Shown: in pieces, positions 11,581 to 40,300 of the stretch
Layout: the number at the start of each line of letters is the position of its first letter
How positions within the stretch are numbered: the stretch's first letter is position 1
Virus record (IMG/VR): IMGVR_UViG_3300036846_000513
Location: 1-40,300 of that record
DNA from: a virus
Reading direction: 5' to 3' (one strand)
Length of the DNA: 40,300 nucleotides
Made by a program: the position numbers and the translations under genes
The notes under the pieces: model-generated
What the model saw: the letters and a program-made list of their open reading frames with translations, nothing else
Database searches by the model: none
What the model was told of the DNA's origin: nothing

Positions 11581-11958
11581 TCAGCCGATCCCGGCAATGT
11601 AATCCAGCGCCACCACCGCCGAGCCGGTTGTGGGCGCGGCGCCGGTTGAGGCCAGGGTCAGATAAATCGGCGTATCCGCCGCCAGCGGCCCTTGCGCGCC
11701 GATAGGGGCCACCGTGTCTGTCCGCGCGACGGTCTTCAGGTCCGTCGCGGCCAGGAGCTGCGCGCCGCCCGGCGCATTGCCGACCGCGACCGTGTTCGTG
11801 GTGGAGTTGGCCGCCGTGGTCACACTCAAATGGGTTGTCAGTAGCAGCGCGCCCGCAGGCAGCACGCCGAGCACGACCGATGCGGGCGAAGCGAACGTGA
11901 TAAGCGCCGAAATCTGATGGACGACTTGAAGTTGGGTCTTCCGACCACCGGTTGCCAT
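11581..11958 (-). CDS. Putative capsid-associated (decoration-like) protein
   Basis: A 125-aa, Ala/Thr/Val-rich, beta-strand-rich protein (ASVVLGVLPAGALLLTTHLS, TPIYLTLASTGAAPTTGS) directly downstream of the coat gene with a 9-base gap. Its size, all-beta make-up and place suggest a decoration or head-fibre base protein, but it could also be a head completion factor. No recognised family. Confidence 0.55.
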   Translation of the reverse strand: MATGGRKTQLQVVHQISALITFASPASVVLGVLPAGALLLTTHLSVTTAANSTTNTVAVGNAPGGAQLLAATDLKTVARTDTVAPIGAQGPLAADTPIYLTLASTGAAPTTGSAVVALDYIAGIG

Positions 11959-15698: not shown

Positions 15699-15913
15699 GG
15701 ACGACTCCCTTTCGTCGGACTAAGGCGCTTCAGGGCGTCAATCGCGCCCTGGATCACCTTGATACGGCCTTGCACGGACTCCTTGGCCTGACGGGCGCCC
15801 AGGGCGTCCTTCGACTCGTCCGCATAGACCTCCAATTGCCGGTCCAACTGACGCTCGTAGTTGCTGAGCCAGTTGATTTCCCGCTCCAGTACGATGATCG
15901 CTTCCTCAGACAC
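15695..15913 (-). CDS. Small coiled-coil protein between portal and scaffold
   Basis: A 72-aa helical protein starting with GTG at 15913, inside the portal stop (CGTGTCTGA). Residues 1-62 form one long amphipathic helix (EEAIIVLEREINWLSNYERQ, KESVQGRIKVIQGAIDALKR). The reading frame opens far upstream, but that part is arginine-rich shadow sequence of the portal gene. Overlaps of 8 bases with portal and 4 with scaffold argue for coupled translation. Role unknown, possibly head assembly. Confidence 0.6.
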   Translation of the reverse strand: MSEEAIIVLEREINWLSNYERQLDRQLEVYADESKDALGARQAKESVQGRIKVIQGAIDALKRLSPTKGSRP

Positions 15914-18137
15914 GGCCCGCGCCTCCGGGTTGTGACGATCCGCCTGGCGTGACCTGTCCAACAGGCGCGGCAGGCGCCTGAGGCGGCCCAGGGCGAATCC
16001 CCGCCCCTCCGGACGGCAGGCGGGGAGCGCCGCGCGGAGGAGCGCCCGGCGCCGCAAGCCCGGCAGGAGAAGCAGACGGGCCGGGGGCGCCAGGACCCGG
16101 CGCAGGCGGGCCGGGTGGAGTCGTGTCGCGCATGAACCCGAGGCCCAGGCCGACGTGCGCCGTGTGGGCGTCCGTGACCTGTTTGAACGCCTTGGCCTGA
16201 TGCGCCTGAGCCGACGCCTTTTTCTCAGCCGTGTCGGCGTTCTTGTTGTCCAATTCCGCTTGTTGGCTGGCCACGACAGCCGGGTTCGGCTGAGACATGA
16301 CCTGGACCTGTTGCGTGATCGCTTGGGCCAGGGTTTGCGCCACCGAGGCCGGGATATCGAGGTACTGGACAAGATCGGCCAGCACGGTCGGCGAAATGAG
16401 TTGCGCCTGTAGAAGTTGCTGCACCAGGGGCATCAGGATAGCGGCGACGCGCGCCTTGGTGTTGGGCGCCGCCGGCGCCTCGTCCACAACCACGTCGTAT
16501 TCTTCGCCAGCCTGATTCATGGCGAGCGGGACGTACTGTTGCTCGCCGTCGAGCACGATCCGGACCATGAAGTCGTCAGGCAGATAGAGCCGCATCATCG
16601 ACAGCAGCAGCTTGCCTTGATTGCGCTGATAGCGGCGCTTGGCGTCGAAGAACGATGACAGGATTCCATAGGCCGCCTGCTTCCGCTGAAGCTCCAGAAC
16701 GCCCGCCTGTTCACGGCTGGCCAGTCCCAGAATCTCTTCGTTCACCCCGGTACAGGCCGTCACCATGTCCTTGGCGAACGACATCAACTGGAACAGGGCG
16801 GGTTGGACCTGAGGCGGCGTCTTGGGCGCCATCTTCGACCCATGTTGGCCGCTGAGCGCGCCTGACTTGACCCAGGTCACTTTGGCCGTGTTCGCCCAGG
16901 TCTTTTCAAACTGGCGAACGTCGGCGACCGCATCCTCTTCCAGCATCATGCCGCCGTTGGCATTGGTCCGGACGATATGCAGCACTTCAGAGAACAGCTT
17001 GTTGACGAACTTGTTCGGCTCCACCATCGGCTTGACCAAGCCGTAGTAAGTCCCCTTGTTGCGGTCCCTCTTGGCCGTAATCGCCTGATACCTGAACGCC
17101 TGTTCAGGCATGACTTCCTTGAACAAGACGGACCCCTGGCCAGTGAAGGCCCGGTAATAGACCTTGGTTGTGCTTTTCACTGAACGCAGATTGGGATTCA
17201 GTCCCTTGGCCTTGTTGAAATCGGCCTTGGACATGGGCGTCAGCTTGGTGATGGTCGGATCAGTCGGATGCGGCATCGGCGCGACGTGGACCTCTTGCCG
17301 CTCCCACCACTGCCATTCAGACACGATCACTTCCGGGTCTTCGGACGTGCCCAACATGCCGTGGGTGTAGCGCTGGCGCGGATTGACCACCGTCAGCCGC
17401 TTGCCGGTCGCGTCCGACCCGTCCATTTCGCCAATGTCTAAGTCAGGCTGGCCAATCTCTTCCTTGAAGTCGTCAAACTCGTCCTCGCTCATGGGGATTT
17501 CGCGCTTCAGGTAGCGCGCATCCTCGAAACAGCGCTTCCGCGACGCCGGATCGGCTTTCATCTGAAGCGGGTCCACTCGCTCCTTCAGGATCGTCGCCGT
17601 CTCGCTCTCGACCTCGACCCGCGTTTCGGTCCAGCCAATGCCGCACGTCAGGGCATCCAGAAAAGCATCTGTGTCCTCTTGGTCGCCGTTACACTGATCG
17701 ACAATGTAATTGGCGCCCTGAGTCAGCACGTCGGCAATGCCGGTACTCTGAACAGACGTGTTCCGGGGATAGTATTGGACCTGTTGCCGGTCCTGAATCT
17801 CGGCGCCGTTGACCGCATCAATGGCCGGTTCGGTCAGGTTGAAGGTAACAGGGATTTTCTGCCCTTCCTTCATCCGCTCGCGTTCTTCTTCCTCCCACTG
17901 GGTTCCAGCGCGGAAATCGAACCAAGCCTTCGCTTCCTGAATCCATTCCGACCAATGGGCCAGCAGCAGCACGTCCCACCGGTCGAACATGACCAACAGG
18001 TCTTCGTCGTCCGGAAGCGATGGGGCCTTGCCCTGAGACGCCACCGGGTTCTCGGCGGGCGTCATCGAGCCGTCGAACTGCGGGCCAGTCGGGCGCGGAT
18101 CACCGATCATTGGGCGCCCCGCCTGGCCGTTCGTCAT
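15906..18137 (-). CDS. Portal protein, P22-like
   Basis: A 743-aa protein, the size of P22 portal (gp1). The core contains DVLLLAHWSEWIQEAKAWFD, EPAIDAVNGAEIQDRQQVQY, a DALTCGIGWTETRVEVE wing strand, and MVTACTGVNEEILGLASREQ, all typical of P22-type portals. The end is a Gln/Ala helix then a Pro/Gly-rich tail. It forms the dodecameric ring for packaging and ejection. The start at 18137 overlaps the upstream gene by 38 bases; ATG at 18110 is an alternative with an 11-base overlap. Confidence 0.85.
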   Translation of the reverse strand: MTNGQAGRPMIGDPRPTGPQFDGSMTPAENPVASQGKAPSLPDDEDLLVMFDRWDVLLLAHWSEWIQEAKAWFDFRAGTQWEEEERERMKEGQKIPVTFNLTEPAIDAVNGAEIQDRQQVQYYPRNTSVQSTGIADVLTQGANYIVDQCNGDQEDTDAFLDALTCGIGWTETRVEVESETATILKERVDPLQMKADPASRKRCFEDARYLKREIPMSEDEFDDFKEEIGQPDLDIGEMDGSDATGKRLTVVNPRQRYTHGMLGTSEDPEVIVSEWQWWERQEVHVAPMPHPTDPTITKLTPMSKADFNKAKGLNPNLRSVKSTTKVYYRAFTGQGSVLFKEVMPEQAFRYQAITAKRDRNKGTYYGLVKPMVEPNKFVNKLFSEVLHIVRTNANGGMMLEEDAVADVRQFEKTWANTAKVTWVKSGALSGQHGSKMAPKTPPQVQPALFQLMSFAKDMVTACTGVNEEILGLASREQAGVLELQRKQAAYGILSSFFDAKRRYQRNQGKLLLSMMRLYLPDDFMVRIVLDGEQQYVPLAMNQAGEEYDVVVDEAPAAPNTKARVAAILMPLVQQLLQAQLISPTVLADLVQYLDIPASVAQTLAQAITQQVQVMSQPNPAVVASQQAELDNKNADTAEKKASAQAHQAKAFKQVTDAHTAHVGLGLGFMRDTTPPGPPAPGPGAPGPSASPAGLAAPGAPPRGAPRLPSGGAGIRPGPPQAPAAPVGQVTPGGSSQPGGAGRV

Positions 18138-18498
18138 AAACGACGTTGCCGTCCTGATCGGCTAACTGATGGTCATTGATCCACGACGGCGCCGAGGGCA
18201 GCGCGTACCGGCTCTCGCTCGAAAAGCTTTCGTGGTACGGCGTCTTGTAGGTATCCGGGTAATGCACCCGCTGATCGTTCGGGTTGACCGCAGTCTGATC
18301 GACCCCGTTGCTGGCCACGTCCTTCCAATACCCGCGCATGTCGTAATCCGGCGCCGCCTCATCCGGATCGAACGGAACCCGGTTCGCCGCCAGCCATGTC
18401 CGGAACAGCCCCTCGCTCGTCCCCTTCAACGGCGTCGTCCAGGGGCCAGGGGTCGCGTGCGGCAAGTTCCGGTCAAGCACGGTATTCAGGTCGGTCAT
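18100..18498 (-). CDS. Conserved phage protein upstream of portal
   Basis: A 132-aa protein. The middle, VPFDPDEAAPDYDMRGYWKD followed by VNPNDQRVHYPDTYKTPYHE and SFSSESRYALPSAPSW, is a motif met in many phage proteins encoded near terminase or portal. No catalytic residues can be named. Its ATG overlaps the upstream gene's stop by ATGA. It is probably part of head assembly or packaging; function unknown. Confidence 0.65.
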   Translation of the reverse strand: MTDLNTVLDRNLPHATPGPWTTPLKGTSEGLFRTWLAANRVPFDPDEAAPDYDMRGYWKDVASNGVDQTAVNPNDQRVHYPDTYKTPYHESFSSESRYALPSAPSWINDHQLADQDGNVVYDERPGGAPNDR

Positions 18499-18839
18499 TG
18501 CATCCGCACCCCCAGGGCCTCGCGCGCGGCGCCTAGGGCCGCATCGCGGATCAGATGCAGGTTGGCCCGCTCATCCGGAAACACCGTCTCCAGCCAGGAC
18601 ACCGGAGCCATCGCACAGCAGTCTTCCAGCCGCTCCGGATCGATCAGGCTGGCCAGGGGCTTGACCCGCCCCTCCTTCAGGGCGTCGAACACCAGCGGCC
18701 CGTTGATCGCCAGCCAAACCTCGCCCTCGTCCACATCGACCACCAGCTTGCGCTCATGCACCGGAACACTGTCGAACGTCATCGCCCCAGGCCCAGACAT
18801 GACGGTCGCCGTCATGATCACGAAGGGATGGCCGCTCAT
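18495..18839 (-). CDS. Hypothetical protein upstream of portal
   Basis: A 114-aa protein starting MSGHPFVIMTATVMSGPGAM. It is mixed alpha/beta (KLVVDVDEGEVWLAINGPLV, SLIDPERLEDCCAMAPVSW). A TTG five codons upstream (18854) is an alternative start; ATG at 18839 is preferred. It overlaps the next gene by 4 bases and opens the operon that runs on to portal. Family not recognised. Confidence 0.55.
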   Translation of the reverse strand: MSGHPFVIMTATVMSGPGAMTFDSVPVHERKLVVDVDEGEVWLAINGPLVFDALKEGRVKPLASLIDPERLEDCCAMAPVSWLETVFPDERANLHLIRDAALGAAREALGVRMQ

Positions 18840-18947
18840 GTCCGTACGTCCCAATCCAGCGTCGTGGCGTGGGGGCGACCGCGGAGTTGACAGGTCAAGG
18901 TCTCGCGCATGGGCGAATGGTCTGCGGCGCGCGTGGGGTCATTCAGG

Positions 18948-19370
18948 TTAAGTCCCCCCGGAGCCCCCCGGCCCTCGGGTCCTGGGGGGGACCCCCGGCG
19001 AACGGGATTCGCCGAACGCCGTTCGTTGAACGTCGTTCTCATCGCTAACCTCTTGAATCTCTTTATCTTTTGCCGGTATCCCCGCCGCCGTGCTGACACG
19101 GCTGACAACCCCTGTCAGGGGTTCGCTAGCCGTGACCCCTAGCGCGTCCTGGGGCGTGTCTTCGAATGCGGCCAAGCACTGGACCCGCAGCGCCTTCGTT
19201 CGCTCACCTACGATCACGAAAGACCAGGGGCGCCCGAGGCTATCCGTTAGGACTTGATCGCCCTGACGACTCCAGACGCGCCGCGCCTGGGACGCGATAG
19301 AACTCAGCTCCGCTGGCCTCAGGTCCAACAGAGTCGGCTTATCCGCCGACGCGGTTTGTGCTCTAGTCAT
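18948..19370 (-). CDS. Hypothetical protein, weakly supported
   Basis: A 140-aa reading frame from ATG at 19370 (MTRAQTASADKPTLLDLRPA). The first 85 residues look protein-like (LSSIASQARRVWSRQGDQVL, RPWSFVIVGERTKALRVQCL). The last 50 are Arg/Gly/Pro-rich, and their DNA is packed with palindromes (18997-19038 and 19099-19132). Either the 3' part doubles as a control region or the true gene is shorter. No Shine-Dalgarno sequence is evident. Confidence 0.4.
   Translation of the reverse strand: MTRAQTASADKPTLLDLRPAELSSIASQARRVWSRQGDQVLTDSLGRPWSFVIVGERTKALRVQCLAAFEDTPQDALGVTASEPLTGVVSRVSTAAGIPAKDKEIQEVSDENDVQRTAFGESRSPGVPPRTRGPGGSGGT
18997..19038. promoter_or_regulatory. Array of three palindromes upstream of the portal operon
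   Basis: Three inverted repeats stand head to tail: GGCGAACGGGATTCGCC (18997-19013), GAACGCCGTTC (19014-19024) and, 3 bases on, GAACGTCGTTC (19028-19038). The last two share the palindrome GAACGNCGTTC. They lie about 160 bases upstream of the first gene of the portal operon, so an operator or activator array for late transcription is possible. They also fall in the doubtful 3' part of a reading frame. Confidence 0.45.
19099..19132. promoter_or_regulatory. Nested palindrome / hairpin
   Basis: AACCCCTGTCAGGGGTT (19107-19123) is a perfect 8-bp-arm palindrome with a single central base, nested in a further CGGCT/AGCCG pair at 19099 and 19128. No T-run follows on either strand, so it is not a standard terminator; an operator or RNA hairpin fits better. 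It lies inside the weakly supported 140-aa reading frame. Confidence 0.45.
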
Positions 19371-19769
19371 AGCGCCGCCGTCAGGCCGTGCGCGGCATTC
19401 GTCAAGCGCCACGGCCTTTAGGGTGAAATTCTAGGGTTAGAGCGGCGGAAATCGCCAAAAGCCATTAGAATTCAAGGCCATGCACCTCCTACCCTGGGAG
19501 GCTGATTTCCAAGAACATCGTTATCTGGCGAATGTGACAAGCGACCAGGCGCGCGCATTTTCGAGTCCGCGACGCCGACAGTTCGCGCGCCGGAAACACT
19601 CGCCCCAGTGTGTGTTGTGGAGCGTCCCCAGAGACCACCCGCCGCCCTACACCCTCGCCTATACGCGCGGCGAAAAAAGCCGACGCGGACCCGCAGAAAG
19701 CATTTTGCGCTTACTGGATTTTCCCGTATGTAGGAGTCTCACTACCCACAACAAACAAGGCCCTATCAC
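19371..19769. other. Divergent intergenic region between virion and cassette modules
   Basis: About 400 bases separate the minus-strand gene starting at 19370 from the plus-strand cassette starting at 19770. Open frames here lack protein-like sequence. A weak plus-strand promoter could use TTGCGC near 19706 with TATGTA 16 bases on, and a GAGTC (a GANTC methylation site) lies at about 19732. The 3' end carries the CCTATCAC sequence that recurs before cassette start codons. No firm promoter call is possible. Confidence 0.4.
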
Positions 19770-19973
19770 ATGCGCAAGCCCTTCACTGACGAACTCCCCC
19801 ACGCCCGCCCCGTCGTCTGGGAAATCCCCTCTTTCGACGGTCGCACAATGTCCTATGGCGTCAGCGTCCGCTTTCAGGGCCGCACGACCGAAGTAACCGC
19901 CTTCGCCACCCCGGACGAAGCCTGGGAACGTGGAGTCGACGCCCTCTGCAACCTGATCGAAGGGCGCTTCTAA
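19770..19973 (+). CDS. Small cassette protein 1 (67 aa)
   Basis: A 67-aa soluble protein (MRKPFTDELPHARPVVWEIP) with strands MSYGVSVRFQGRTTEVTAFA followed by a helix DEAWERGVDALCNLIEGRF. The start follows CCCTATCAC rather than a good Shine-Dalgarno sequence. First gene of a plus-strand run of tiny genes lying between the two minus-strand blocks. It overlaps the next reading frame by TAATG. Function unknown. Confidence 0.65.
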   Translation: MRKPFTDELPHARPVVWEIPSFDGRTMSYGVSVRFQGRTTEVTAFATPDEAWERGVDALCNLIEGRF

Positions 19974-20065
19974 TGACCAAGCACCCGAGCACCGTCGAAT
20001 TCCTGATTATGGGCGCCTGTCTTATGGCGTTCGCCTTTGTCTGGGGATCGATCATGCCGGGCTAA
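19973..20065 (+). CDS. 30-aa single-span membrane peptide
   Basis: A very short frame coupled to the previous gene by TAATG: residues MTKHPSTVEF then a hydrophobic stretch LIMGACLMAFAFVWGSIM ending PG. The one-base coupling and the clear transmembrane segment support a real small membrane protein. The first hairpin element begins 10 bases after its stop. Role unknown. Confidence 0.5.
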   Translation: MTKHPSTVEFLIMGACLMAFAFVWGSIMPG

Positions 20066-20074
20066 CGCGGCGCC

Positions 20075-20157
20075 ATCGCGGAGAACCCGCCCAAGGCCCG
20101 AGCCGGAGACGGTGGCGGGCCTTAAGGCGTCAGAGGGCGCCAACGCCCCGACAACAA
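20075..20157 (+). repeat. Two-hairpin intergenic element, copy 1
   Basis: An 83-bp block identical to copy 2 at 21089-21171. Hairpin 1 (20093-20123) pairs GGCCCG with CGGGCC and CCG with CGG around a GAGA (GNRA) tetraloop. Hairpin 2 (20135-20148) pairs GGGCG with CGCCC around CCAA. On the minus strand the first loop would read TCTC, so the plus-strand RNA is the likely active form. There is no T-run, so it is not a terminator. The block ends about 17 bases before the next ATG. Confidence 0.8.
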
Positions 20158-20173
20158 GGAACGGCCTATCACC

Positions 20174-20365
20174 ATGCGAACACTCGCCATCATCGCCGAA
20201 GCGCAGCGCCAGCACGCGGGCGCCTTTTTCAAGTCCGAGGCCGACGCCTGGGACATGGCCGCGCGCATCGCGGACGAATGCACCACCTACCAGCCCCAGC
20301 AGCTCGCGGGCCGATGGGTCCTGAATGCCTACGACGAAACCGGCTTTTGGCTTGGCCGCCTCTAG
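20174..20365 (+). CDS. Small cassette protein (63 aa)
   Basis: A 63-aa protein (MRTLAIIAEAQRQHAGAFFK) with two helices (SEADAWDMAARIADECTTYQ) and a C-terminal strand pair (RWVLNAYDETGFWLGRL). It directly follows hairpin element copy 1; the start codon is preceded by GGCCTATCACC, with AAGGA some 12 bases off. No known family. The aromatic C-terminus and size resemble small phage modulators in general, which is no basis for a function. Confidence 0.6.
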   Translation: MRTLAIIAEAQRQHAGAFFKSEADAWDMAARIADECTTYQPQQLAGRWVLNAYDETGFWLGRL

Positions 20366-20393
20366 CCCTCGCCCAGATCAGGAACCCGCACCC

Positions 20394-20792
20394 ATGAACA
20401 CCGCCCAGGTTATCGCCGCCATGATCGACGCCGCCGCGCCGGTCATTTCCGCTTACTGGACCGACATAGCCCACGACGCCCGGTACATCGCCGACGCTCC
20501 CGCAGGCTCAACCTTCCTTTGGGCGCCGTACGAGCACGGAACCCGCCTCGTTACGGTGGAGCGCGCCGGAAAGCCGAACCTTGCCGCCGCCGAAGCCTTT
20601 GACGCCATGCAGGGCGCCCAGGCGATCAGCAAACGCGACGCCGACGCCCTGAAATGGTTTGCCCTCACCGTTTACGCAGGCGGCGATTGGACCTTTGCGA
20701 AAATCCCCGCCTACGACGCCCAAGCCGCCGTTATGGGCGCCGCCGCCGCCGCGCGGCAGACGCCCGAGCGCGTCAACGTTTTGAACCTGTAG
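20394..20792 (+). CDS. Cassette protein (132 aa)
   Basis: A 132-aa protein starting MNTAQVIAAMIDAAAPVISA. The ATG at 20394 was chosen because sequence upstream of it is not protein-like; it comes 28 bases after the previous stop. It is alpha/beta with DIAHDARYIADAPAGSTFLW, EHGTRLVTVERAGKPNLAAA and WFALTVYAGGDWTFAKIPAY. The opening MN-AQ is shared with the next gene (MNKAQCLRAARAQ). Soluble, family unknown. Confidence 0.6.
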   Translation: MNTAQVIAAMIDAAAPVISAYWTDIAHDARYIADAPAGSTFLWAPYEHGTRLVTVERAGKPNLAAAEAFDAMQGAQAISKRDADALKWFALTVYAGGDWTFAKIPAYDAQAAVMGAAAAARQTPERVNVLNL

Positions 20793-20803
20793 GAGCGGCG
20801 CCC

Positions 20804-21079
20804 ATGAACAAGGCCCAATGCCTCCGCGCCGCCCGCGCCCAGTTCGCCCGCCACGGATGGCGCACTTACGCCGAAGCCCTGGACGTTGTGATTATGGGCG
20901 GCTTTGAGCGCGCATGGCGCCAAGGCGTCAACGCGGCGACCTTTCACGCCATGACACGCCAATTCCTCACCGGGCAGGACTTCATTTGGGCCGCAGAAGC
21001 GACCGGCGCCGAGCGCGCGCAATGGGTCGCCTACGCCTTGCGCCGCTTGGCCGACGAAGACCCGCAGCGCCCCAGCTAA
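20804..21079 (+). CDS. Cassette protein (91 aa)
   Basis: A 91-aa helical protein (MNKAQCLRAARAQFARHGWR) with EALDVVIMGGFERAWRQGVN and GAERAQWVAYALRRLADEDP. AGGAGCGGCGCCC upstream gives a Shine-Dalgarno sequence, unlike the genes that follow a hairpin element directly. It ends 9 bases before hairpin element copy 2. Function unknown. Confidence 0.6.
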   Translation: MNKAQCLRAARAQFARHGWRTYAEALDVVIMGGFERAWRQGVNAATFHAMTRQFLTGQDFIWAAEATGAERAQWVAYALRRLADEDPQRPS

Positions 21080-21088
21080 ACGCCCCAG

Positions 21089-21171
21089 ATCGCGGAGAAC
21101 CCGCCCAAGGCCCGAGCCGGAGACGGTGGCGGGCCTTAAGGCGTCAGAGGGCGCCAACGCCCCGACAACAA
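21089..21171 (+). repeat. Two-hairpin intergenic element, copy 2
   Basis: Identical over 83 bases to copy 1, 1014 bases away, although the genes on either side are unrelated. It has the same GAGA-capped hairpin and the same CCAA-capped second hairpin, and is followed by AGCCTATCAC and the ATG at 21186. Perfect identity points to recent duplication or strong constraint. Confidence 0.8.
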
Positions 21172-21185
21172 AGAAAGCCTATCAC

Positions 21186-21779
21186 ATGACCTACACCACC
21201 GAAGGCCGAGAGCTTGGCCTATATGGCGTCAACGGCGGCAGCCTGTACCGGCAGAACGCAACACCCGTCATCGAGAACCTTGCGCGCAAGATCGCAGCCG
21301 GAACCTATCACCCCGCACTCGCAGTCCAGGCTTTCCGCTTTTGGGCCGAAAGCGCCGCGCGCGCCTATGTCCGCGAATTCAGCGCCAACGAGCCGGGCGA
21401 ATGGTGCGCCATGTTCCCGCCCATGGCCCGCCTGGAGGCCGCCCGCTACGCCTTGGCGCACTACAGCGAACAGATCGAAGACCGCGCCCAGGACTTGAAG
21501 GCCCAGGCCGAGAACCGGCGCCGCTGGACCTTGAGCGCCATCCGCGCCGCCAACGCCGACTCCGGACGGTTTTTCTTCTCCCGCGACACCATGCGATTTT
21601 TTGGCGACACCATGAAAAGTTGGACCGTGGACTATAACGGCCCGCGCATCTTCGTTGTGCGCGTCAAGCCGAGCCGCGACCTTGACGGGCGCCTGATGAA
21701 AGACGCGGGCGAACGCCGCGAATTCGACCCGACGACGGGCGAAATCGGCTCCCCCATCCGCGCCCAGGTGGAGGTTTAA
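21186..21779 (+). CDS. Largest cassette protein (197 aa)
   Basis: A 197-aa protein starting MTYTTEGRELGLYGVNGGSL. Residues 25-120 are helical (ENLARKIAAGTYHPALAVQA, ARLEAARYALAHYSEQIEDR). Residues 120-197 are strand-rich with many aromatic residues: SGRFFFSRDTMRFFGDTMKS, WTVDYNGPRIFVVRVKPSRD. The N-terminal helical part recalls phage proteins that handle fixed 'row/column' helices, but no family was recognised. It follows hairpin copy 2 and has CCTATCAC before the ATG. Confidence 0.65.
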   Translation: MTYTTEGRELGLYGVNGGSLYRQNATPVIENLARKIAAGTYHPALAVQAFRFWAESAARAYVREFSANEPGEWCAMFPPMARLEAARYALAHYSEQIEDRAQDLKAQAENRRRWTLSAIRAANADSGRFFFSRDTMRFFGDTMKSWTVDYNGPRIFVVRVKPSRDLDGRLMKDAGERREFDPTTGEIGSPIRAQVEV

Positions 21780-21782
21780 GCC

Positions 21783-22064
21783 ATGGCCCATTGGCAAGCT
21801 TCCAGCGGGCGCCCGCTTTACCTGAGGCTCAGCCGAGCCGACGCCGACAGCGGACACCATCAAGGACCCTGTGACGACGACGTTGCAGCCCTAGCCCGCA
21901 GGCCGAACGTGCGCCGCCAACTCGCGGCGATGGACCCCGCAACCCTCGCCGCCGAACTCCGCGAATACGGCGCCTGGGATGACGACGAACTGTCCGAACA
22001 CGACGCCAACCTAGAGCGCATCCTTTGGCTTGCGTGCGGCGACATCAGCGAAGGGAACTTCTAA
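21783..22064 (+). CDS. Cassette protein (93 aa)
   Basis: A 93-aa acidic protein (MAHWQASSGRPLYLRLSRAD). Its N-terminus has several His and Asp residues (DADSGHHQGPCDDDVAALAR), followed by a helical part (PATLAAELREYGAWDDDELS, ANLERILWLACGDISEGNF). The start lies 3 bases after the preceding stop. The layout suggests a small helical regulator; nothing decisive is seen. Confidence 0.6.
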   Translation: MAHWQASSGRPLYLRLSRADADSGHHQGPCDDDVAALARRPNVRRQLAAMDPATLAAELREYGAWDDDELSEHDANLERILWLACGDISEGNF

Positions 22065-22065
22065 C

Positions 22066-22323
22066 GTGTGGACCGTGACGCTTTACAATCAGCACGCCAT
22101 GGCCAGCGCCGCCGCCAAGGGCCGCACCACGCGGCAAGCATTTGAACGCGCCTTGCACAACGCCGGAGGCGCTTTCCTCTATTGTGGCGCCCGCGAATTT
22201 GGGCGCCCGCACGACTGGGAATCCGCCTTCCAGCACGTCCGCGCCGCAATTAGCCATCAGCGCACGACCCGCGTTAGCCTCGCCAGTCCGACCGGATTCA
22301 CCGTCGAGATTGAACGAGGCTAA
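22066..22323 (+). CDS. Cassette protein (85 aa), GTG start
   Basis: An 85-aa protein from GTG at 22066, one base after the preceding stop, reading WTVTLYNQHAMASAAAKGRT. An internal ATG at 22099 is the alternative, but the upstream residues form a sensible first strand. A helix (TRQAFERALHNAGGAFLYCG) and a C-terminal strand (TRVSLASPTGFTVEIERG) follow. It ends 10 bases before hairpin copy 3. Function unknown. Confidence 0.55.
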   Translation: MWTVTLYNQHAMASAAAKGRTTRQAFERALHNAGGAFLYCGAREFGRPHDWESAFQHVRAAISHQRTTRVSLASPTGFTVEIERG

Positions 22324-22333
22324 CGCCCAGCAG

Positions 22334-22411
22334 ATCGCGGAGAACCCGCCCAAGGCCCGAGCCGGAGACGGTGGCGGGCCTTAAGGCGTTGCGGGGCGCC
22401 TAAGACCCCGC
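22334..22411 (+). repeat. Two-hairpin intergenic element, copy 3
   Basis: The first 55 bases are identical to copies 1 and 2, including the GAGA-capped hairpin. The second hairpin differs in sequence but is rebuilt: GCGGGG (22391-22396) pairs with CCCCGC (22406-22411) around a 9-base loop. Changes on both arms that keep pairing support a real structure. CCTATCAC follows. Confidence 0.75.
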
Positions 22412-22431
22412 GCCTATCACACGGAACCCCA

Positions 22432-22653
22432 ATGGCCCTTCCCACCCCCGCGACGCCCGTTGCGAAGTCGCTGCACACCCTCACTGTGATTCAACAGGTC
22501 GCGCGCCTGATCTATGCCCAAGGCGGAATCAGCCTGGAGGGCGCCACGGACTCGGCCTTGCTTCACCTTGGCTTGTACGGACGCCCGGACCCCTATGGCC
22601 TCCGCGCTCGCGCCCTGGAGCTGATGCAGCGCGACCACGGCGGCGCCCAATGA
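22432..22653 (+). CDS. Cassette protein (73 aa)
   Basis: A 73-aa helical protein (MALPTPATPVAKSLHTLTVI) with QQVARLIYAQGGISLEGATD and a basic end (GLRARALELMQRDHGGAQ). It lies after hairpin copy 3; here CCTATCAC is followed by ACGGAACCCCA before the ATG. It overlaps the next gene by ATGA. No known family. Confidence 0.6.
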   Translation: MALPTPATPVAKSLHTLTVIQQVARLIYAQGGISLEGATDSALLHLGLYGRPDPYGLRARALELMQRDHGGAQ

Positions 22654-22877
22654 GCCCCGCCCGCTACGTCATCGACGCCCGCCACCCGAACGCCCAGCGC
22701 CACGACCTCGCGGGCGAGCTTGTGAAGGTCACAACCGACCGCGACGGGACTCGCTACGTTTCCAGCGCCCGTTTGGGTTGCTCGAAAAACTACGACGTGC
22801 AGACCGACGAGGCCGCCATTCGGCGCCTACTCGCCGAACACGCCTTGACCCTTACCGCCATCGCCCAGGAGCCCTAG
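22650..22877 (+). CDS. Cassette protein (75 aa)
   Basis: A 75-aa protein (MSPARYVIDARHPNAQRHDL) with strands ELVKVTTDRDGTRYVSSARL and a final helix (EAAIRRLLAEHALTLTAIAQ). It is coupled to the previous gene by ATGA and stops 4 bases before the next start. The compact strand-strand-helix pattern suggests a small globular protein. Function unknown. Confidence 0.6.
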   Translation: MSPARYVIDARHPNAQRHDLAGELVKVTTDRDGTRYVSSARLGCSKNYDVQTDEAAIRRLLAEHALTLTAIAQEP

Positions 22878-22881
22878 ACCC

Positions 22882-23115
22882 ATGCCCCGCACCCTCACGC
22901 CCGACGAACTGGAATCCGAGCGCGTCATGTTCCGCGACTCCATGCTCGCCGCCCTCGATAAGTACACCACCGCCATGTTGGAAAGCCTGGAAGCGCGCGC
23001 CTTCAGCCGCACCCCCGGCGCCGCAGATCAGGACTTGCCCGAACTCTTCCGCGTTTTCGACGCCCAGTTTGACCGCATCCTGAAACGCGCAGGCGTCACC
23101 ATCGCCCAGGAGTAG
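22882..23115 (+). CDS. Cassette protein (77 aa)
   Basis: A 77-aa helical protein (MPRTLTPDELESERVMFRDS). Most of it is two or three amphipathic helices (LAALDKYTTAMLESLEARAF, LPELFRVFDAQFDRILKRAG). It ends with VTIAQE, close to the TAIAQEP end of the gene before it, which may reflect a duplicated 3' end. Hairpin copy 4 follows. No known domain. Confidence 0.6.
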   Translation: MPRTLTPDELESERVMFRDSMLAALDKYTTAMLESLEARAFSRTPGAADQDLPELFRVFDAQFDRILKRAGVTIAQE

Positions 23116-23126
23116 ACGCCCGCCAG

Positions 23127-23204
23127 ATCGCGCCAGGAGCGCCCAGGAAGCCCGCGCCGGAAACGGTGGCGGGCCTAAGGCGTTGCGGGGCGCCAGCACG
23201 CCCC
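23127..23204 (+). repeat. Two-hairpin intergenic element, copy 4 (diverged)
   Basis: This copy has many differences, yet both hairpins survive. Hairpin 1 pairs GCCCGC (23150-23155) with GCGGGC (23169-23174) and CCG with CGG, with loop GAAA, still a GNRA loop. Hairpin 2 pairs GGGGCG (23187-23192) with CGCCCC (23199-23204). The outer stem has changed at several pairs without losing pairing. No gene starts directly after it. Confidence 0.75.
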
Positions 23205-23553
23205 AGCAGCCGCACAGGAGACGCCGACGCACCCAAGCCCATGCCACTCGATCCGAGCGCCCCAGGCGCCCGCCTCAGAGCCGCCCAGGCGGCGCCCTGG
23301 ACCCATTGTGGCGAGAGCCGCGGCGGGCCTTGGCGCGCGCCTGGACGGCCTGAGGACGCCGCCGCCTGGACCCCGCGACTGTCAAAAAATGACAGGCGGC
23401 CTGGCGCTTCGCCGCAAAAACTCAATTCCGGTTTCCAAAATCCATTTTTACGGCAAAATCTGTGGGGATTTTTCCTGATTTCCCGCCGCTCAAAAAACCC
23501 CTAGCCCCCGATTTTTCGAGAGCTTCCCGAACCACCAAGGAGTCCACATAGCC
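23205..23553. other. Gene-free stretch at the end of the small-gene cassette
   Basis: No convincing gene. It contains a fifth GAGA-capped hairpin (GTGGC 23308-23312, GCCGC 23317-23321), a hairpin at 23373-23399, and then an A/T-rich part (23400-23520) that could hold a promoter for the membrane gene at 23554. An open frame from 23241 to 23504 has no good ribosome site and a low-complexity start, so it is not called. Confidence 0.4.
23373..23399. other. Hairpin with poly-A loop
   Basis: CTGTCA (23379-23384) and TGACAG (23390-23395) pair perfectly around AAAAA, extended by CCGC/GCGG across a 2-base bulge. No T-run follows on either strand, so it is not a classical terminator. It could be an operator or an RNA processing or binding site. 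Confidence 0.5.
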
Positions 23554-23748
23554 ATGTTCACCATCGCAGGCGGCATCTTGTTGGCCGTCGCCATCCTTTT
23601 GCTAATCGGCGTCGCTCTCGCCATCGCCATCGCCGCTGTTGTCAGCGTCAGGAACGACTTGAAAAACGCCGCCTGGACCCGAGAAAAATGGGACCGCGAA
23701 AAACAATGGCTGGAGGCCCAGGCCGCTCGCAAAGGACCGTGGGGATGA
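23554..23748 (+). CDS. Small single-span membrane protein
   Basis: A 64-aa protein with a long hydrophobic N-terminal segment (IAGGILLAVAILLLIGVALA and on to residue 32) and a charged cytoplasmic-type tail (RNDLKNAAWTREKWDREKQW). AAGGAG lies 12 bases before the ATG. It overlaps the next gene by ATGA. The design would suit a holin-like or spanin-like role, but it is not near a lysis enzyme. Function unknown. Confidence 0.65.
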   Translation: MFTIAGGILLAVAILLLIGVALAIAIAAVVSVRNDLKNAAWTREKWDREKQWLEAQAARKGPWG

Positions 23749-24077
23749 CTGCGGCCAAGCCCAAGGCCGCGCGCATGACGGCGGCTGAACTGATCGCGGC
23801 CCGCCAAGCTCTCGGCCTCACCGCCGCCGCCTTGGGGCGCACCTTGTTGCTGGAAACCCGCGATCCAGGCGAAGCCGTCCGCCGTTGGGAAACCGGCGTC
23901 ACACCGGTTCCAGGCCCCGTCACCATCGCCGTGCGCTTGCTTGTCCTGATGCAGTCCAAACCCGCCAACCGGGCCACGCCGCCCCAGGAAAAGCCGCCTG
24001 AGGCCCTTGCACCCATCGCCGGAGCCACATCGACCTGGGGACGACAGGCGCGATTGAAGACCCGCAGGCGCGGCTAG
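23745..24077 (+). CDS. XRE-like helix-turn-helix protein
   Basis: A 110-aa protein starting MTAAKPKAARMTAAELIAAR. Residues 11-65 hold an XRE/HTH domain of the type AARQALGLTAAALGRTLLLE, then EAVRRWETGVTPVPGPVTIA and a closing hydrophobic helix, with the usual W-E-x-G core. The rest is a disordered basic tail (GRQARLKTRRRG). It is coupled to the membrane gene and convergent with terL 5 bases away, without a visible terminator. Probable transcription regulator. Confidence 0.7.
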   Translation: MTAAKPKAARMTAAELIAARQALGLTAAALGRTLLLETRDPGEAVRRWETGVTPVPGPVTIAVRLLVLMQSKPANRATPPQEKPPEALAPIAGATSTWGRQARLKTRRRG

Positions 24078-24082
24078 TCGCC

Positions 24083-25663
24083 CTAATCGCCCCACAGCGA
24101 CTCCATCAGCCTTTCCCAGGGGCGGCGCCGGTAACGGTCGCCGCTCTCGCTTTTCGTGGCGACCGGCGCCGCGAACGTCAGCGCCACCGCATCCCAGCCG
24201 TCAGGCGACCGGAGCCCGCGCTTGCGGATATCTTCCTTGCTCTCAAGGACCAGGAATTGCCGGGCGTCGTACTTGTAGCCAGGGCAGACAGCATCCGTGT
24301 GTAAAGCGTCGTCATCGGGAATATCCGCGCCGCCCACGTCCTGAAGCCAGTCCTTCGACTCCATCCACATTTCGGCGCGTCTATTGCGCGGACCCGGTAC
24401 AACCTCGCCCCGCGCCCCGTAACGCACCGCTTGATGCGGGGCGCTACCGAAATTCACCCCCTCGCACACCTTGGTATAGGGCTCGCCCCAGTCGTGCAGC
24501 AGATCGACCACGCCAGCCCCGGCGCCGCCCACGTCGATGAACACCTTGGCCGGGTTCTCATGATCGACAATCGAGCGGACCCAGTTAGCGCCCTGGACCG
24601 TATCGAGCTTATGCCGCCGCTCAACCTTGTGGACCTTGCGCCCCTGACGCCATGCAATCGCGAAACCGTCATCCCCGAACCGCGCCGGATCGACTCCGAC
24701 GATCAGACTGCCCAGAGCCTCGCATTGCGCTTTGCGCGCCGTCAGCACCAGCGCACTAGGGATAAAAGCGTCATGCCCCGTCGTCTGGAACGCTTCAGCC
24801 GCAGACGCCGGGTATTCCTGACGAAAGAGGTTCGGGTCCTTCAGTTCCTGAAGCTTCGCCCGCCGCCACACCAGTTGCGGAATCGTCAGGCCATACAGCC
24901 GCGCGTACTCTTCCTCTTCCTCGTTCGCCTCCCAACCTAATGGAGGCGTGCGCTGATAGTCCTGACTCCAGTACCAGGGCACAAAAATTCCCTGATAGTC
25001 CCCAGCCCCGGCCTCGCATTGCTGCCAACGCTCATGGAATTCGCCGCCGATCCCATTGGCCGTGCTCTCGAATACAATCTCCGTCCCCGGCAGATCAGGA
25101 ACAGTCTGGAGCACCCCGGCCATGTGCTCTTTCGCATTGGGCCAGTGCGCCACCTCCGAACCATGGAAAAGGGTGATCGTCTTCGACCGGCCTACGGCCT
25201 TGGACCCCGCCGTACCGACCGAATAACCACTGTCCAACTTGGAGAAATACAGTTCCTTGGCGTTCGCCGCCCCAGTCGTCACCTGAACATCAGGCGGACA
25301 GAACCGATGGAACCGCTCAACCATACTGAACAGGTTGGCCGTCGCATCCTGTTCATGCGTCAGGATATAGACCGTCGTCCCTTTGACCCAGGTCGCACGA
25401 TGGTAAAACCGCGCGCCGATATAAGTCGAAAGTCCTTCCTGACGGGCCTTCAAAATTAGAGCGCGGACTTTTCCTGTTTCGCGCCGCTGTTCTTCCAGTT
25501 TGGCGTGAACGTAATCTTGCACGCCATTGAAAACGAGCGGCCTAAGCTCGCCGCTCTTGGTCCGGATTTTCAGGCATTTGCTGGCGTAATACGGCAGATC
25601 ATGATGGAACCGCCGAAACCGCTCGCGCCGCTCAGGATCGACCGGGACCAGCGACATGGACAT
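24083..25663 (-). CDS. terL: Terminase large subunit
   Basis: A 526-aa packaging motor. The ATPase domain has a Walker A-like loop KARQEGLST (about 72-80), a Walker B-like strand TITLFHGSEVA (about 162-172) and a coupling motif FESTANG (about 198-204). The C-terminal nuclease begins with GVDPARFGDDGFAI (D325). In the usual Walker A the residue before S/T is Lys; here it is Leu, with the basic residue earlier, as in many terminases. It starts 4 bases after TerS. Confidence 0.88.
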   Translation of the reverse strand: MSMSLVPVDPERRERFRRFHHDLPYYASKCLKIRTKSGELRPLVFNGVQDYVHAKLEEQRRETGKVRALILKARQEGLSTYIGARFYHRATWVKGTTVYILTHEQDATANLFSMVERFHRFCPPDVQVTTGAANAKELYFSKLDSGYSVGTAGSKAVGRSKTITLFHGSEVAHWPNAKEHMAGVLQTVPDLPGTEIVFESTANGIGGEFHERWQQCEAGAGDYQGIFVPWYWSQDYQRTPPLGWEANEEEEEYARLYGLTIPQLVWRRAKLQELKDPNLFRQEYPASAAEAFQTTGHDAFIPSALVLTARKAQCEALGSLIVGVDPARFGDDGFAIAWRQGRKVHKVERRHKLDTVQGANWVRSIVDHENPAKVFIDVGGAGAGVVDLLHDWGEPYTKVCEGVNFGSAPHQAVRYGARGEVVPGPRNRRAEMWMESKDWLQDVGGADIPDDDALHTDAVCPGYKYDARQFLVLESKEDIRKRGLRSPDGWDAVALTFAAPVATKSESGDRYRRRPWERLMESLWGD

Positions 25664-25667
25664 GGCG

Positions 25668-26138
25668 TCAGTCCAATTGGTCTAGGTAATCCTCATGCCG
25701 CTGGAACCCCGTCCGCGCATTCAGGTCCAACTTGTTACCGAACATCGCCGGGCACACATGCGCCGCCAGCCATTTGCGGTTTTCACAGCGGATTTGCGAC
25801 CGCTGGACGTATTCGCGATCCATGACCGCGACCTCTTTCCCCGCGTTATTGGTGATAATCTTGGTATCCCCGGAATCGTCATCCCCGATTTCAAGGATTT
25901 CATACGCCAGCATTTCGCCTTGCTGTTGCCGCGCCAGTTCATACGCCTTATGGAATTCAGCGTGGTCATGCCGCCATTGGTAGATCGTTTGCCACGAAGG
26001 CCAATGCGGGTTGGCCCGGCACAACTTCGCCACGCTCACCGACGCTTCCGACATCACCGCGCAGATTTCGTCAGCCAGTTCCGGCGTGTACTGGACCGGC
26101 GCCTTAGGCCGCCGCTCGATCACCGTCAGCTTACCCAC
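25668..26138 (-). CDS. terS: Terminase small subunit
   Basis: A 156-aa protein. An N-terminal helix-turn-helix (YTPELADEICAVMSEASVSV with the turn SWQTIYQWRHDHAEFHKAYE) is followed by an oligomerisation helix (YELARQQQGEMLAYEILEIG) and the C-terminal MDREYVQRSQIRCENRKWLA, all typical of phage TerS. It recognises phage DNA and feeds it to TerL, encoded just downstream. Confidence 0.85.
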   Translation of the reverse strand: MGKLTVIERRPKAPVQYTPELADEICAVMSEASVSVAKLCRANPHWPSWQTIYQWRHDHAEFHKAYELARQQQGEMLAYEILEIGDDDSGDTKIITNNAGKEVAVMDREYVQRSQIRCENRKWLAAHVCPAMFGNKLDLNARTGFQRHEDYLDQLD

Positions 26139-26147
26139 GGCGGCGCC

Positions 26148-26348
26148 TCACTCGTCGTCATACGGATCGGACGGACAGGGCGCGGAAGTCTTGTCGTCGC
26201 CGCCTGTGAACGCCGGGCCACCCTTGGACAGGGACGTTGTGCGCGGCTTGTTGTTGAGCAGATCAGAACGCTTCGGCTTTGGCGAACTGCCGCTATCCGA
26301 AGCAACGATGGAATCCCGAGACGCCGGGCGAGTGTGCGAAGCAGCCAT
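26148..26348 (-). CDS. Small Ser-rich hypothetical protein
   Basis: A 66-aa polar, probably disordered protein (MAASHTRPASRDSIVASDSG) ending in an acidic tail (CPSDPYDDE). AAGGAACCGGTC before the ATG gives a good Shine-Dalgarno sequence. It lies between gcrA-like and terS genes on the same strand. No domain seen. Confidence 0.5.
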   Translation of the reverse strand: MAASHTRPASRDSIVASDSGSSPKPKRSDLLNNKPRTTSLSKGGPAFTGGDDKTSAPCPSDPYDDE

Positions 26349-26398
26349 GACCGGTTCCTTTGCCGATCAAGCCCCCCTTGGGGCGTGCGCGCCGCGCG

Positions 26399-26854
26399 TC
26401 AAGCCTTACCGCGAAACAACACCACGTTGCCCGGATCGACAGGGGGCCAGGGCTTGCCGTGCAGCAGCGCCAGATGACCCAGGCAATAGGCTTCGCCGTG
26501 CTCCGCTGGCAGACAACACGACAGGGTTTCCCCGCCACGACCCGCCACCGGCCAAGCGCATTCGTCATCCGCCCGTTGCGTCCAGGGCCGGGGCGTGGAC
26601 CCCCGAAGCGGTAGCGGCGCGGGAGGCTCAGGCCGCGCCGGAACCGGGGCGCCCAGCACCGACATACCGTCGCCGTAGAACGTCGCCTGAAGCGCGTCAG
26701 GCGACCGTGACGGCAGGCCCAGCCTGGACCGCTTGCGCCGTACCGCCGCCGCCGTCACCCCGCCCACCAGGGCCGCTATCGCCGTGGACGCGGCGCCCCG
26801 TCCCCATTCAACCGCCAGGATGGCGGCTTTTTCGTCAGACCACACCGCAGTCAT
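26399..26854 (-). CDS. GcrA-family cell-cycle regulator homologue
   Basis: A 151-aa protein starting MTAVWSDEKAAILAVEWGRG. Residues 1-50 match the GcrA N-terminal HTH (W-S/T-D-E-K, then ALVGGVTAAAVRRKRSRLGL). The C-terminal part, CAWPVAGRG followed by SCCLPAEHGEAYCLGHLALL, matches the GcrA 'CxWPxG...C...YCxxH' end (C99, C113/114, C124, H127). GcrA in Caulobacter works with sigma-70 at GANTC-methylated promoters. GGAGGA before the ATG; coupled to the upstream gene by ATGA. Confidence 0.85.
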   Translation of the reverse strand: MTAVWSDEKAAILAVEWGRGAASTAIAALVGGVTAAAVRRKRSRLGLPSRSPDALQATFYGDGMSVLGAPVPARPEPPAPLPLRGSTPRPWTQRADDECAWPVAGRGGETLSCCLPAEHGEAYCLGHLALLHGKPWPPVDPGNVVLFRGKA

Positions 26855-27495
26855 GCTAAATCCTCCTCCCAACTTACGGGCCGATTTGAGCTTTCGGATT
26901 GTGTCTGTTGACCAGGCGGCGGGTCCCCGAACGGGATCGGATCACCGTCCGCAACCCACTGGCCGTTACTACGCGGCACGTCGCGGGCCTTGAACTTCGC
27001 GCCCTGCCAAGTCGCCTTGGCCAGTTGCAGCGCCCCCGGAATCGAGTCGATCAGCGCCCCGATTTCCCGCGCCGTGTAGACCGACACTTGCCGCCCTTCG
27101 GCGATCACCTTGCCCGCCCCCTCGTCGTTCTCGACCAGGGCCGCCACCGACCCATCCGCCAGCGGGACTTCCCACACCCACGGCGCTATCGGCCTATGCC
27201 CCTCGCTTTCCGCCCAGGCGTTCAGCGCCCACCAGCCCCGTTGCATGGCTTCGGCCTTGGCTTGCGCCGCCATCAACCCGTCCGCCGTCAGCACCGGCGC
27301 CCCCCAGGCCGCTTCGATCACCACGCGCCACGTCGCCTCTTGTCGCCGGAACTTGGCCAGCAGATCGGTGTTGCCGAGGGCCGCCAGCCGTTCCAGCCGC
27401 CCACACCCCCACTTCGCCTCACACTCCCGCTTGGCCGCCTCAACCGCCTCGCCGAACGCGCCGAGCCGGGCCGCATCCTCAGGGCTTACCGCCAT
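26851..27495 (-). CDS. Hypothetical protein (214 aa)
   Basis: A 214-aa protein starting MAVSPEDAARLGAFGEAVEA. Helical N-terminus (RLERLAALGNTDLLAKFRRQ, AMQRGWWALNAWAESEGHRP), then WEVPLADGSVAALVENDEGA and VYTAREIGALIDSIPGALQL. Similar proteins, with a 'W...V.L.DG...A.V...' strand followed by a 'Y...E....' helix, occur beside gcrA-like genes in alphaproteobacterial phages. Function unknown. The start at 27495 overlaps the upstream gene by 17 bases. Confidence 0.65.
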   Translation of the reverse strand: MAVSPEDAARLGAFGEAVEAAKRECEAKWGCGRLERLAALGNTDLLAKFRRQEATWRVVIEAAWGAPVLTADGLMAAQAKAEAMQRGWWALNAWAESEGHRPIAPWVWEVPLADGSVAALVENDEGAGKVIAEGRQVSVYTAREIGALIDSIPGALQLAKATWQGAKFKARDVPRSNGQWVADGDPIPFGDPPPGQQTQSESSNRPVSWEEDLA

Positions 27496-39601: not shown

Positions 39602-39631
39602 CACGTCAGGGCATGTCAAAACACGTCAAAA
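39602..39631. promoter_or_regulatory. Three phased 10-bp boxes, right copy
   Basis: Identical to 1-30. Here the boxes lie 115-144 bases upstream of the integrase start, the place expected of integrase arm or excisionase sites. Confidence 0.65.
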
Positions 39632-39692
39632 ACCGCCGATTTTTCCTGCGCTGGGAAGTGGATAGCGTTGATTTTGCTGGGGAAATTAGATC

Positions 39693-39710
39693 GTGTTACC
39701 CGAAAAACAC
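39693..39710. other. Candidate integrase core site, right copy
   Basis: Same 18-bp inverted-arm sequence as at 92-109, between the integrase side of this prophage and the left arm of the next. If this is the hybrid junction of two prophages, strand exchange took place in or near it. Confidence 0.35.
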
Positions 39711-39868
39711 ACATACTAACCTAAGTGACCGCTTCGGTTCGTAATGTAGCTTCACGCTAGATCCCGGCCCCAAGGACGCCCGCATAACGCCGTTCAAAAC
39801 GCCGGAACAAGGTAGGCTGATTCTGAGTTGGCCCCGCGCCACCCGGCCCCAATGATTAGGGCCGAAAG

Positions 39869-39888
39869 AGTGTTTAACGTGAAACACT
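39869..39888. promoter_or_regulatory. parS-like palindrome, right copy
   Basis: Same 20-bp palindrome as at 257-276, with identical flanks although bases on either side have diverged. This supports constraint on the site. Confidence 0.6.
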
Positions 39889-39912
39889 TAGCGCCAGGCA
39901 GCGCGTCACAAT

Positions 39913-40134
39913 TCACCACCGCTCAAGGGTTTCGACTTCCGCAAAACGGACCAGCCGCACCGGCTTGCCTGACACGTCGCCGTGACGTCGGGCGATATGG
40001 GCCAGCCGACAAACCACGTCCTTGTTCATCGAAACGAGCGGAACCGCCGCCATCCCCATGCCTGGAAGAATGGCGCACACCGGCCCTTCCTTCCCGTCCT
40101 CTTCCTTCACTACCCAGGCGTACAGATCGCTCAT
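39913..40134 (-). CDS. Second copy of the conserved 73-aa repeat protein
   Basis: A paralogue of the 301-522 gene, differing in a handful of residues (SDLYAWVVKEEDGKEG at the start, RFAEVETLERW at the end). No HTH gene stands opposite it here. It belongs to the left end of the second prophage. Function unknown. Confidence 0.7.
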   Translation of the reverse strand: MSDLYAWVVKEEDGKEGPVCAILPGMGMAAVPLVSMNKDVVCRLAHIARRHGDVSGKPVRLVRFAEVETLERW

Positions 40135-40268
40135 GGGGCAATCTGTAACCTCGCCACAGGGCGGAATCCAGCGAGGCTCGAAAATCCAGGCCGTACAGCG
40201 CCAGGAGTCGTTTGGGCCACTTGGGTAGCGAACGGGGCGCGCGAGGCCCCCGGACGGCTTCCTGAGGG

Positions 40269-40300
40269 CTACTGTGTGGCCGTGTAATTGTAGCCGCTAC
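40269..40300 (-). CDS. Partial ejection-protein gene of the next prophage (C-terminus only)
   Basis: The last 32 bases of the window encode GSGYNYTATQ and a stop, identical to the end of the 936-aa protein at 880-3690. The gene runs off the window. This is direct evidence that another copy of the virion module follows. Confidence 0.8.
   Translation of the reverse strand, partial: SGYNYTATQ

Follow-up and report, generated by a model that had tools for sequence, protein, structure and literature searches.

What is the sequence that recurs between the tiny genes of a viral small-gene operon, and at which level is it read? The operon lies in a 40.3-kb IMG/VR virus record, a single contig (IMGVR_UViG_3300036846_000513, positions 1 to 40,300; hereafter the window), whose translations, among them a P22-like portal gene and terminase genes, make it look like that of a phage. 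About 12 genes on the plus strand (19770-24077) are situated between the portal and terminase genes, which are on the opposite strand, and four copies of the element stand among them. We found that the element is a previously uncatalogued RNA family, not in Rfam, and covariation showed that its sense transcript folds into a 5′ hairpin (P1) and a main hairpin (P2 and P3). Tentatively, we take it for a signal between cistrons that governs mRNA processing or stability and doubles as a recombination seam; the mechanism is one that we infer.

Copies were located with two covariance models, R1, built from five sequences, and R2, the rebuilt model; A3 denotes an alignment of thirty copies. The E-values of these models are rough, and R2 scores below approximately 30 bits in GC-rich DNA represent chance. 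Two further helices are named below, a 3′ hairpin (P4) and an outer helix (P0), the competitor of P1. Other sequences are designated by L numbers.

Copy 1, 20071-20149, plus strand: R1 and R2 matches, fold and parse; upstream stop TAA 20063-20065, next start 20174; P1 20078-20081/20087-20090, P2 20094-20100/20116-20122, P3 20102-20105/20110-20113 with loop GAGA 20106-20109, competing P0 20088-20091/20126-20129, 3′ hairpin P4 20135-20139/20144-20148.
Copy 2, 21085-21163, plus strand: R1 and R2 matches; identical to copy 1 over 83 bases; upstream stop TAA 21077-21079, next start 21186.
Copy 3, 22330-22411, plus strand: R1 and R2 matches; upstream stop 22321-22323, next start 22432; P1, P2, P3 and P0 as in copy 1, P4 rebuilt as GCGGGG/CCCCGC 22391-22396/22406-22411.
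Copy 4, 23123-23204, plus strand: R1 and R2 matches, parse; upstream stop TAG 23113-23115; P1 GCGC/GCGC 23130-23133/23139-23142, P2 23148-23154/23170-23176, loop GAAA 23160-23163, P0 23140-23143/23179-23182, P4 GGGGCG/CGCCCC 23187-23192/23199-23204.

The four copies were found on the sense strand where the original prediction, a reading of the letters alone, had placed them. Their R1 scores were 59-69 bits, whereas no unrelated site in the window exceeded 15 bits. The predicted identity of copies 1 and 2, the absence of a T-run and the GNRA loop of hairpin 1 in all four copies (GAGA, GAGA, GAGA and GAAA) were borne out, and copies 3 and 4 indeed had hairpin 2 (our P4) remade from different paired bases. 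The two-hairpin description missed a third helix, P1 (GCGG/CCGC), and the competing P0. The statement that copy 4 keeps its stems through paired changes held for P4 but failed for hairpin 1, which differs from that of copies 1-3 by an unpaired A-to-C change, a G-C pair turned into an A·C mismatch and the loop change, with no compensatory pair. Inside the window, paired replacement was confined to P4, the last hairpin; true compensatory changes in the main hairpin were supplied by homologues. Folding z-scores relative to shuffled sequence were −2.8 to −3.7 for copies 1-3, a significant difference, and −1.3 for copy 4 alone, which was not significant; nor did the minus strand at the copies fold significantly better than shuffled sequence.

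A pattern scan revealed further viral contigs with the element, in some of them next to unrelated sequence. When R1 was run over 79 terminase relatives, many divergent copies were detected, essentially all antisense to terminase and in the same operon, and R2 recovered copies outside the training set (for example, four in L269, two in L281, two in L268 and a third in L147). The family totals 41 copies in 18 viral contigs. Sixteen of these contigs belong to the phage group of the window and two, L005 and L007, to unrelated phages; L134 and L269, which overlap by 123 identical nucleotides (nt), may be one phage. The covariance search proposed with the original prediction yielded 37 further copies with paired changes and strongly supports the structured RNA module that it had put forward. 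In A3, 96.4% of the cells of P1, P2 and P3 were paired, compared with 80.4% after shuffling (0 of 500 shuffles), and double-sided changes occurred at 10 of the 15 pairs. When the partners were slid by 1-3 columns, pairing fell to 30-43%. RNAalifold recovered the same helices unaided.

Rfam 15 gave no match at the gathering threshold and two weak, chance-level minus-strand matches (E up to 5), and a BLAST search with the element (59 nt) returned nothing convincing from named phages and plasmids (best E, 0.3). No convincing match was found in samples of 385 alphaproteobacterial genomes and 369 genomes of the class to which a Pseudomonas genome belongs; unlike REP and BIME repeats, therefore, the element showed no chromosomal dispersal in these sampled genomes, the host itself not being identified. 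The best terminase relatives in the sampled alphaproteobacterial genomes were only 37-55% identical. When the apical core was sought by pattern with different outer stems, the matches beyond known members were all in coding sequence or due to chance.

Anatomy was counted over 39 parsed copies (copy 1 of L139 and copy 2 of L268 were not parsed automatically). The element is approximately 65-80 nt long. P1 is a 5′ hairpin of 4 base pairs (bp), GCGN/NCGC, whose last pair varies (C-G, G-C or A-U). P2 has 7 bp and is followed by an internal loop in which an A (28/39) faces GG (35/39), and P3, mostly of 4 bp, closes with an R-U pair that is G-U in 24 copies and A-U in 12. Because the favored G-U pair would be A·C on the complementary strand, the plus-strand RNA is the selected form. 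The fixed features are the A/GG internal loop, the R-U pair, P1 and a 3′ GGCG. The apical loop is GNRA in 26 of the 39 copies, so that the GNRA loop stressed by the original prediction is typical; it is also dispensable, since GACA, UAGC, AAAAA and the UUCG-like UUCGC, among others, are found as well. This variation led us to reject a GNRA-specific function, and a boxA-like string, GCGCTCTA, seen in some P1 loops was rejected because it is not conserved. P4, a third hairpin of unrelated sequence, stands behind most copies, is absent in some and is optional. In copies 2 and 3 of L269 (L269:10746-10821 and 11647-11722), P1 is swapped for the hairpin TCCCTGAGCAAAGCGAGGGGA, with P2/P3 and the GGCGT tail kept.

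The strongly conserved A/GG loop and a P3 fixed at 4 bp in most copies would suit the binding site of a phage RNA-binding protein, an operator-like hairpin with an unpaired A on its 5′ side that co-regulates the modules. However, the element also occurs in the unrelated phages L005 (in a recombination-gene region with a C5 methyltransferase) and L007 (a contig with an AAA ATPase gene), as a unit of approximately 65 nt without the neighboring genes. A reader common to the hosts is therefore favored over one phage protein; no RNA-binding protein shared among the phages was identified, and we consider such an operator quite improbable.

Occurrence in unrelated phages also suits a reader at the level of the polymerase, and here the main rival arises: antitermination or anti-polarity of the put type, in which the nascent RNA would bind polymerase and let it pass terminators or resist Rho in a GC-rich operon. 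The RNA of HK022 put binds the zinc-binding domain of the polymerase β′ subunit and suppresses termination. The put element of HK022 has approximately 70 nt and two stem-loops and acts without a phage protein (PMC9378689). Our element, a cis-acting candidate, is likewise phage-encoded, with two principal hairpins (P1 and P2/P3) and conserved internal loops within a similar length, the two hairpins taking up approximately 65-70 nt, and so has the gross anatomy of put (PMC9378689). In contrast, putL and putR of HK022 follow early promoters (PMC9378689), whereas the element is intercistronic and repeated, and the leader of the first operon module (19770-20065) is without it (no R2 match upstream). 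Because one put acts over at least 10 kb (PMC9378689), repeated elements would be redundant. We regard this reading as possible but unlikely.

The conserved GGCG behind P2 can pair with a CGCC from which P1 also takes its 3′ strand, giving the outer helix P0. In a contiguous-helix test, for which the flanks of L139 copy 1, L268 copy 2 and both L281 copies were set by hand, every one of the 41 copies had 3 or more contiguous P0 pairs and 35 of them had 4 or more; the helix probably forms. P2/P3 alone has approximately 11-12 bp, and a stem of approximately 18-20 bp results only if P0 forms in competition with P1. If P0 forms, a tandem G·A could link it to P2 in those copies that have GA on both sides. 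In most copies one and the same CGC serves both P1 and P0; in L005, the three competing strands (GGGG, CCCC and GGGG) have apparently changed together. In the predicted folds, P1 was chosen in the window and P0 in L131 and L138. These observations, together with a P1 that starts as little as about 12-17 nt past the stop codon, are compatible with a translation or attenuation switch, in which a ribosome at the upstream stop, or a bound protein, would select P1 or P0 and so set the next module. However, the P1 and P0 strands are separate in copy 1 of L281, where both helices are possible, L269 copies 2 and 3 have another hairpin for P1, and the predicted fold of copy 1 does not sequester the ribosome-binding site, leaving its region largely unpaired. 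Such a switch is a doubtful explanation.

All copies are sense-oriented and, in the phage group, confined to the small-gene operon. In the window they repeat every 0.8-1.2 kb, intercistronically and close behind stop codons. Where an upstream open reading frame (ORF) was detected, its stop codon ended 6-14 nt before the model start. Given the dimensions of the ribosome, P1 at its distance from the stop would be just outside the terminating ribosome. The next start codon follows 20-42 nt after the element in most copies.

A T-run of at least 4 was found in none of the 41 copies, no element was among the terminator-like sites of the window, and no sigma-70-like promoter was detected in 18000-27000 of the window, where other promoter types are possible. 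Terminators, and promoter motifs of the sigma-70 type resembling PeSLs, are unlikely for this reason. PeSLs of T4-type phages are repeated stem-loops between small accessory genes and tied to modular shuffling. They are reportedly composite promoter-terminator motifs (Comeau, Arbiol and Krisch 2014, cited in PMC5931544). The element resembles them in repetition, location and modular exchange but has neither promoter nor terminator signature and has a conserved multi-helix structure. A further reading takes the elements for U-tract-less terminators between independently transcribed modules. P2/P3 is a GC-rich hairpin like that of an intrinsic terminator, and nearly the same core hairpin, CCCGCGCCGG-NNA-CGGTGGCGGG, is followed by a T-run at sites presumed to be intrinsic terminators in genomes of Bradyrhizobium and Pseudomonas (L112, L126 and L115). 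Those sites have a T-rich end and are without P1, P0 and P4, whereas the element has no U-tract directly behind the stem, and the likeness of the cores is probably convergence on a stable stem-loop. With no T-run, no sigma-70-like promoter detected in the region and, in most copies, only the short distance to the next start, independent termination is extremely unlikely.

At the DNA level, local alignments between related clusters had 76 left ends at or inside elements, compared with 22 expected (0 of 2000 random shifts). Alignments starting in elements extended into the downstream gene, and right ends showed no enrichment. The counts are not independent because one gene, encoding the MALPT...SLHTLTV family, supplies 33 of the 59 alignments of at least 80 nt whose start lies in an element in both phages. 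L268 and L138 carry an element-plus-gene cassette at a site where L131 and L132 are without it, a difference resolved to approximately 10 nt. Gene 20174-20365 follows copy 1 in the window and its homolog precedes an element in L135, where a homolog of 22650-22877 also ends at an element. L131 and L132 have in common the flank and gene behind an element and differ in its interior and upstream. Cassettes of element and downstream gene are gained or lost, and the recombination seam for cassette shuffling suggested by the original prediction is supported by the alignment ends and by the presence and absence of cassettes. Recombination is a well-supported consequence, for which no dedicated enzyme is needed. 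The same data could indicate a mainly DNA-level recombination element whose hairpins are recombinase or single-strand DNA substrates. Against this, the G-U preference marks RNA, the breakpoints are explained by ordinary repeat homology, and the integron attC core (RYYYAAC/GTTRRRY) was absent in 40 of the 41 copies and present in one, as one half only, in a loop. We judge it very unlikely.

The surroundings of the copies are listed below; gene calls were based on ORFs and codon-position GC only.

15906-18137, minus strand: P22-like portal gene, translations inspected.
19770-20065, plus strand: first operon module, ORFs 19770-19973 and about 19973-20065, from the ORF list and raw sequence.
20174-21079, plus strand: module between copies 1 and 2, ORFs 20174-20365, 20394-20792 (phrog_18883) and 20804-21079, gaps of at most 28 nt.
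21186-22323, plus strand: module between copies 2 and 3, ORFs 21186-21779, 21783-22064 (phrog_14450) and 22066-22323, gaps of at most 3 nt.
22432-23115, plus strand: module between copies 3 and 4, ORFs 22432-22653, 22650-22877 and 22882-23115, overlaps or gaps of at most 4 nt.
24083-25663 and 25668-26138, minus strand: terminase genes, translations inspected.

Nearly all operon genes are without an assigned function; the only matches were phrog_18883, phrog_14450 and three weak ones, phrog_4655 and DUF7447 for ORF 21186-21779 and, in addition, DUF6894. ORF 22432-22653 belongs to the MALPT...SLHTLTV family and in relatives recurs behind an element. Within modules, start and stop codons overlap or leave at most 28 nt, and the spacers between modules hold the element, which has its own space because element-free junctions in the window do not exceed 28 nt. 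The operon is antisense between the terminase and portal genes (18948-24083), so late terminase-to-portal transcription would cross approximately 4.5 kb of it in reverse. Gene 21783-22064 has nucleotide-level relatives in Burkholderia phage Paku (L010) and Limnohabitans phage DC33 (L011), both located in runs of small unknown genes. The sequence of positions 1-911 recurs at the other end of the record (39602-40300) with 91-98% identity and an indel, and thus not as an exact end repeat. Two strain variants of a circularly permuted genome, or a tandem prophage, may therefore have been joined in this record.

Similar antisense small ORFs lie downstream of terminase in relatives that have no element (L142, L145, L146, L149 and L151). 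L142 and L145 have a different T-less hairpin, GGCGCGGC-GAAA-GCCGCGCC, at comparable spacers of their small-gene clusters; their common spacer, TAGACGCCAAMGGCGCGGCGAAAGCCGCGCC, forms an 8-bp hairpin with a GAAA loop and no T-run shortly behind a stop codon. In two more distant relatives, other large hairpins occupy spacers in L149:11530-17600 and L151:11557-18800 (minus strand), and two of those in L149 stand behind a repeated GACAGAATGTCGCACC (a small hairpin and a long stem with CCTAG/CTAGG). The L149 and L151 hairpins may constitute another RNA family at module borders, unrelated to the first. In all four contigs it is as if the function, not the sequence, had been kept.

The data fit a mark that is required to fold on translated mRNA at module borders. 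In the reading that we tentatively prefer, processing or stability, a cis-acting structured RNA would punctuate the polycistronic operon of small accessory phage genes. The extended P0-P2-P3 stem, approximately two helical turns with conserved internal loops, would be read by host machinery of the RNase III or RNase E type; the long mRNA would be cut, or shielded from decay, at module borders, and each module would gain its own stable ends and level. On the DNA, the conserved repeats would act as homology at which modules are exchanged, gained and lost. RNase III substrates measure approximately two helical turns, as the extended stem would, and RNase III sites occur between early T7 genes. 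In the puf operon of Rhodobacter, an intercistronic hairpin region sets segmental mRNA stability (Klug et al. 1987, cited in PMC6238624). Like the puf and T7 hairpins, the element is a stem-loop between cistrons of one operon with no T-run; unlike them, it is a dispersed, covarying family with one architecture at many junctions in several phages, and its processing is putative.

Several points weigh against this reading. The P0 strands barely vary among copies. Own flanks paired better than shuffled ones, a level reached by 31 of 2000 shuffles with relatedness uncorrected; because of this and the near-invariant strands, P0 is only probable. The conserved A/GG loop and GGCG tail are also more than a generic stability hairpin requires. 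A variant, which we consider rather improbable, would be bistable punctuation, in which the CGC strand picks either P1, within reach of the terminating ribosome, or P0, which completes the two-turn helix.

If true, translation of the upstream module would decide whether the next module is cut off, protected or expressed, and this switch would be repeated along the operon and travel with modules swapped between phages. Accessory regions of phages hold many tiny unknown genes that are rapidly exchanged. A conserved RNA at module borders would help to explain both their expression from one transcript and the sites at which they recombine. The covariance model provides a searchable marker of cassette borders, and the element a compact RNA with two competing helices that can be probed directly.

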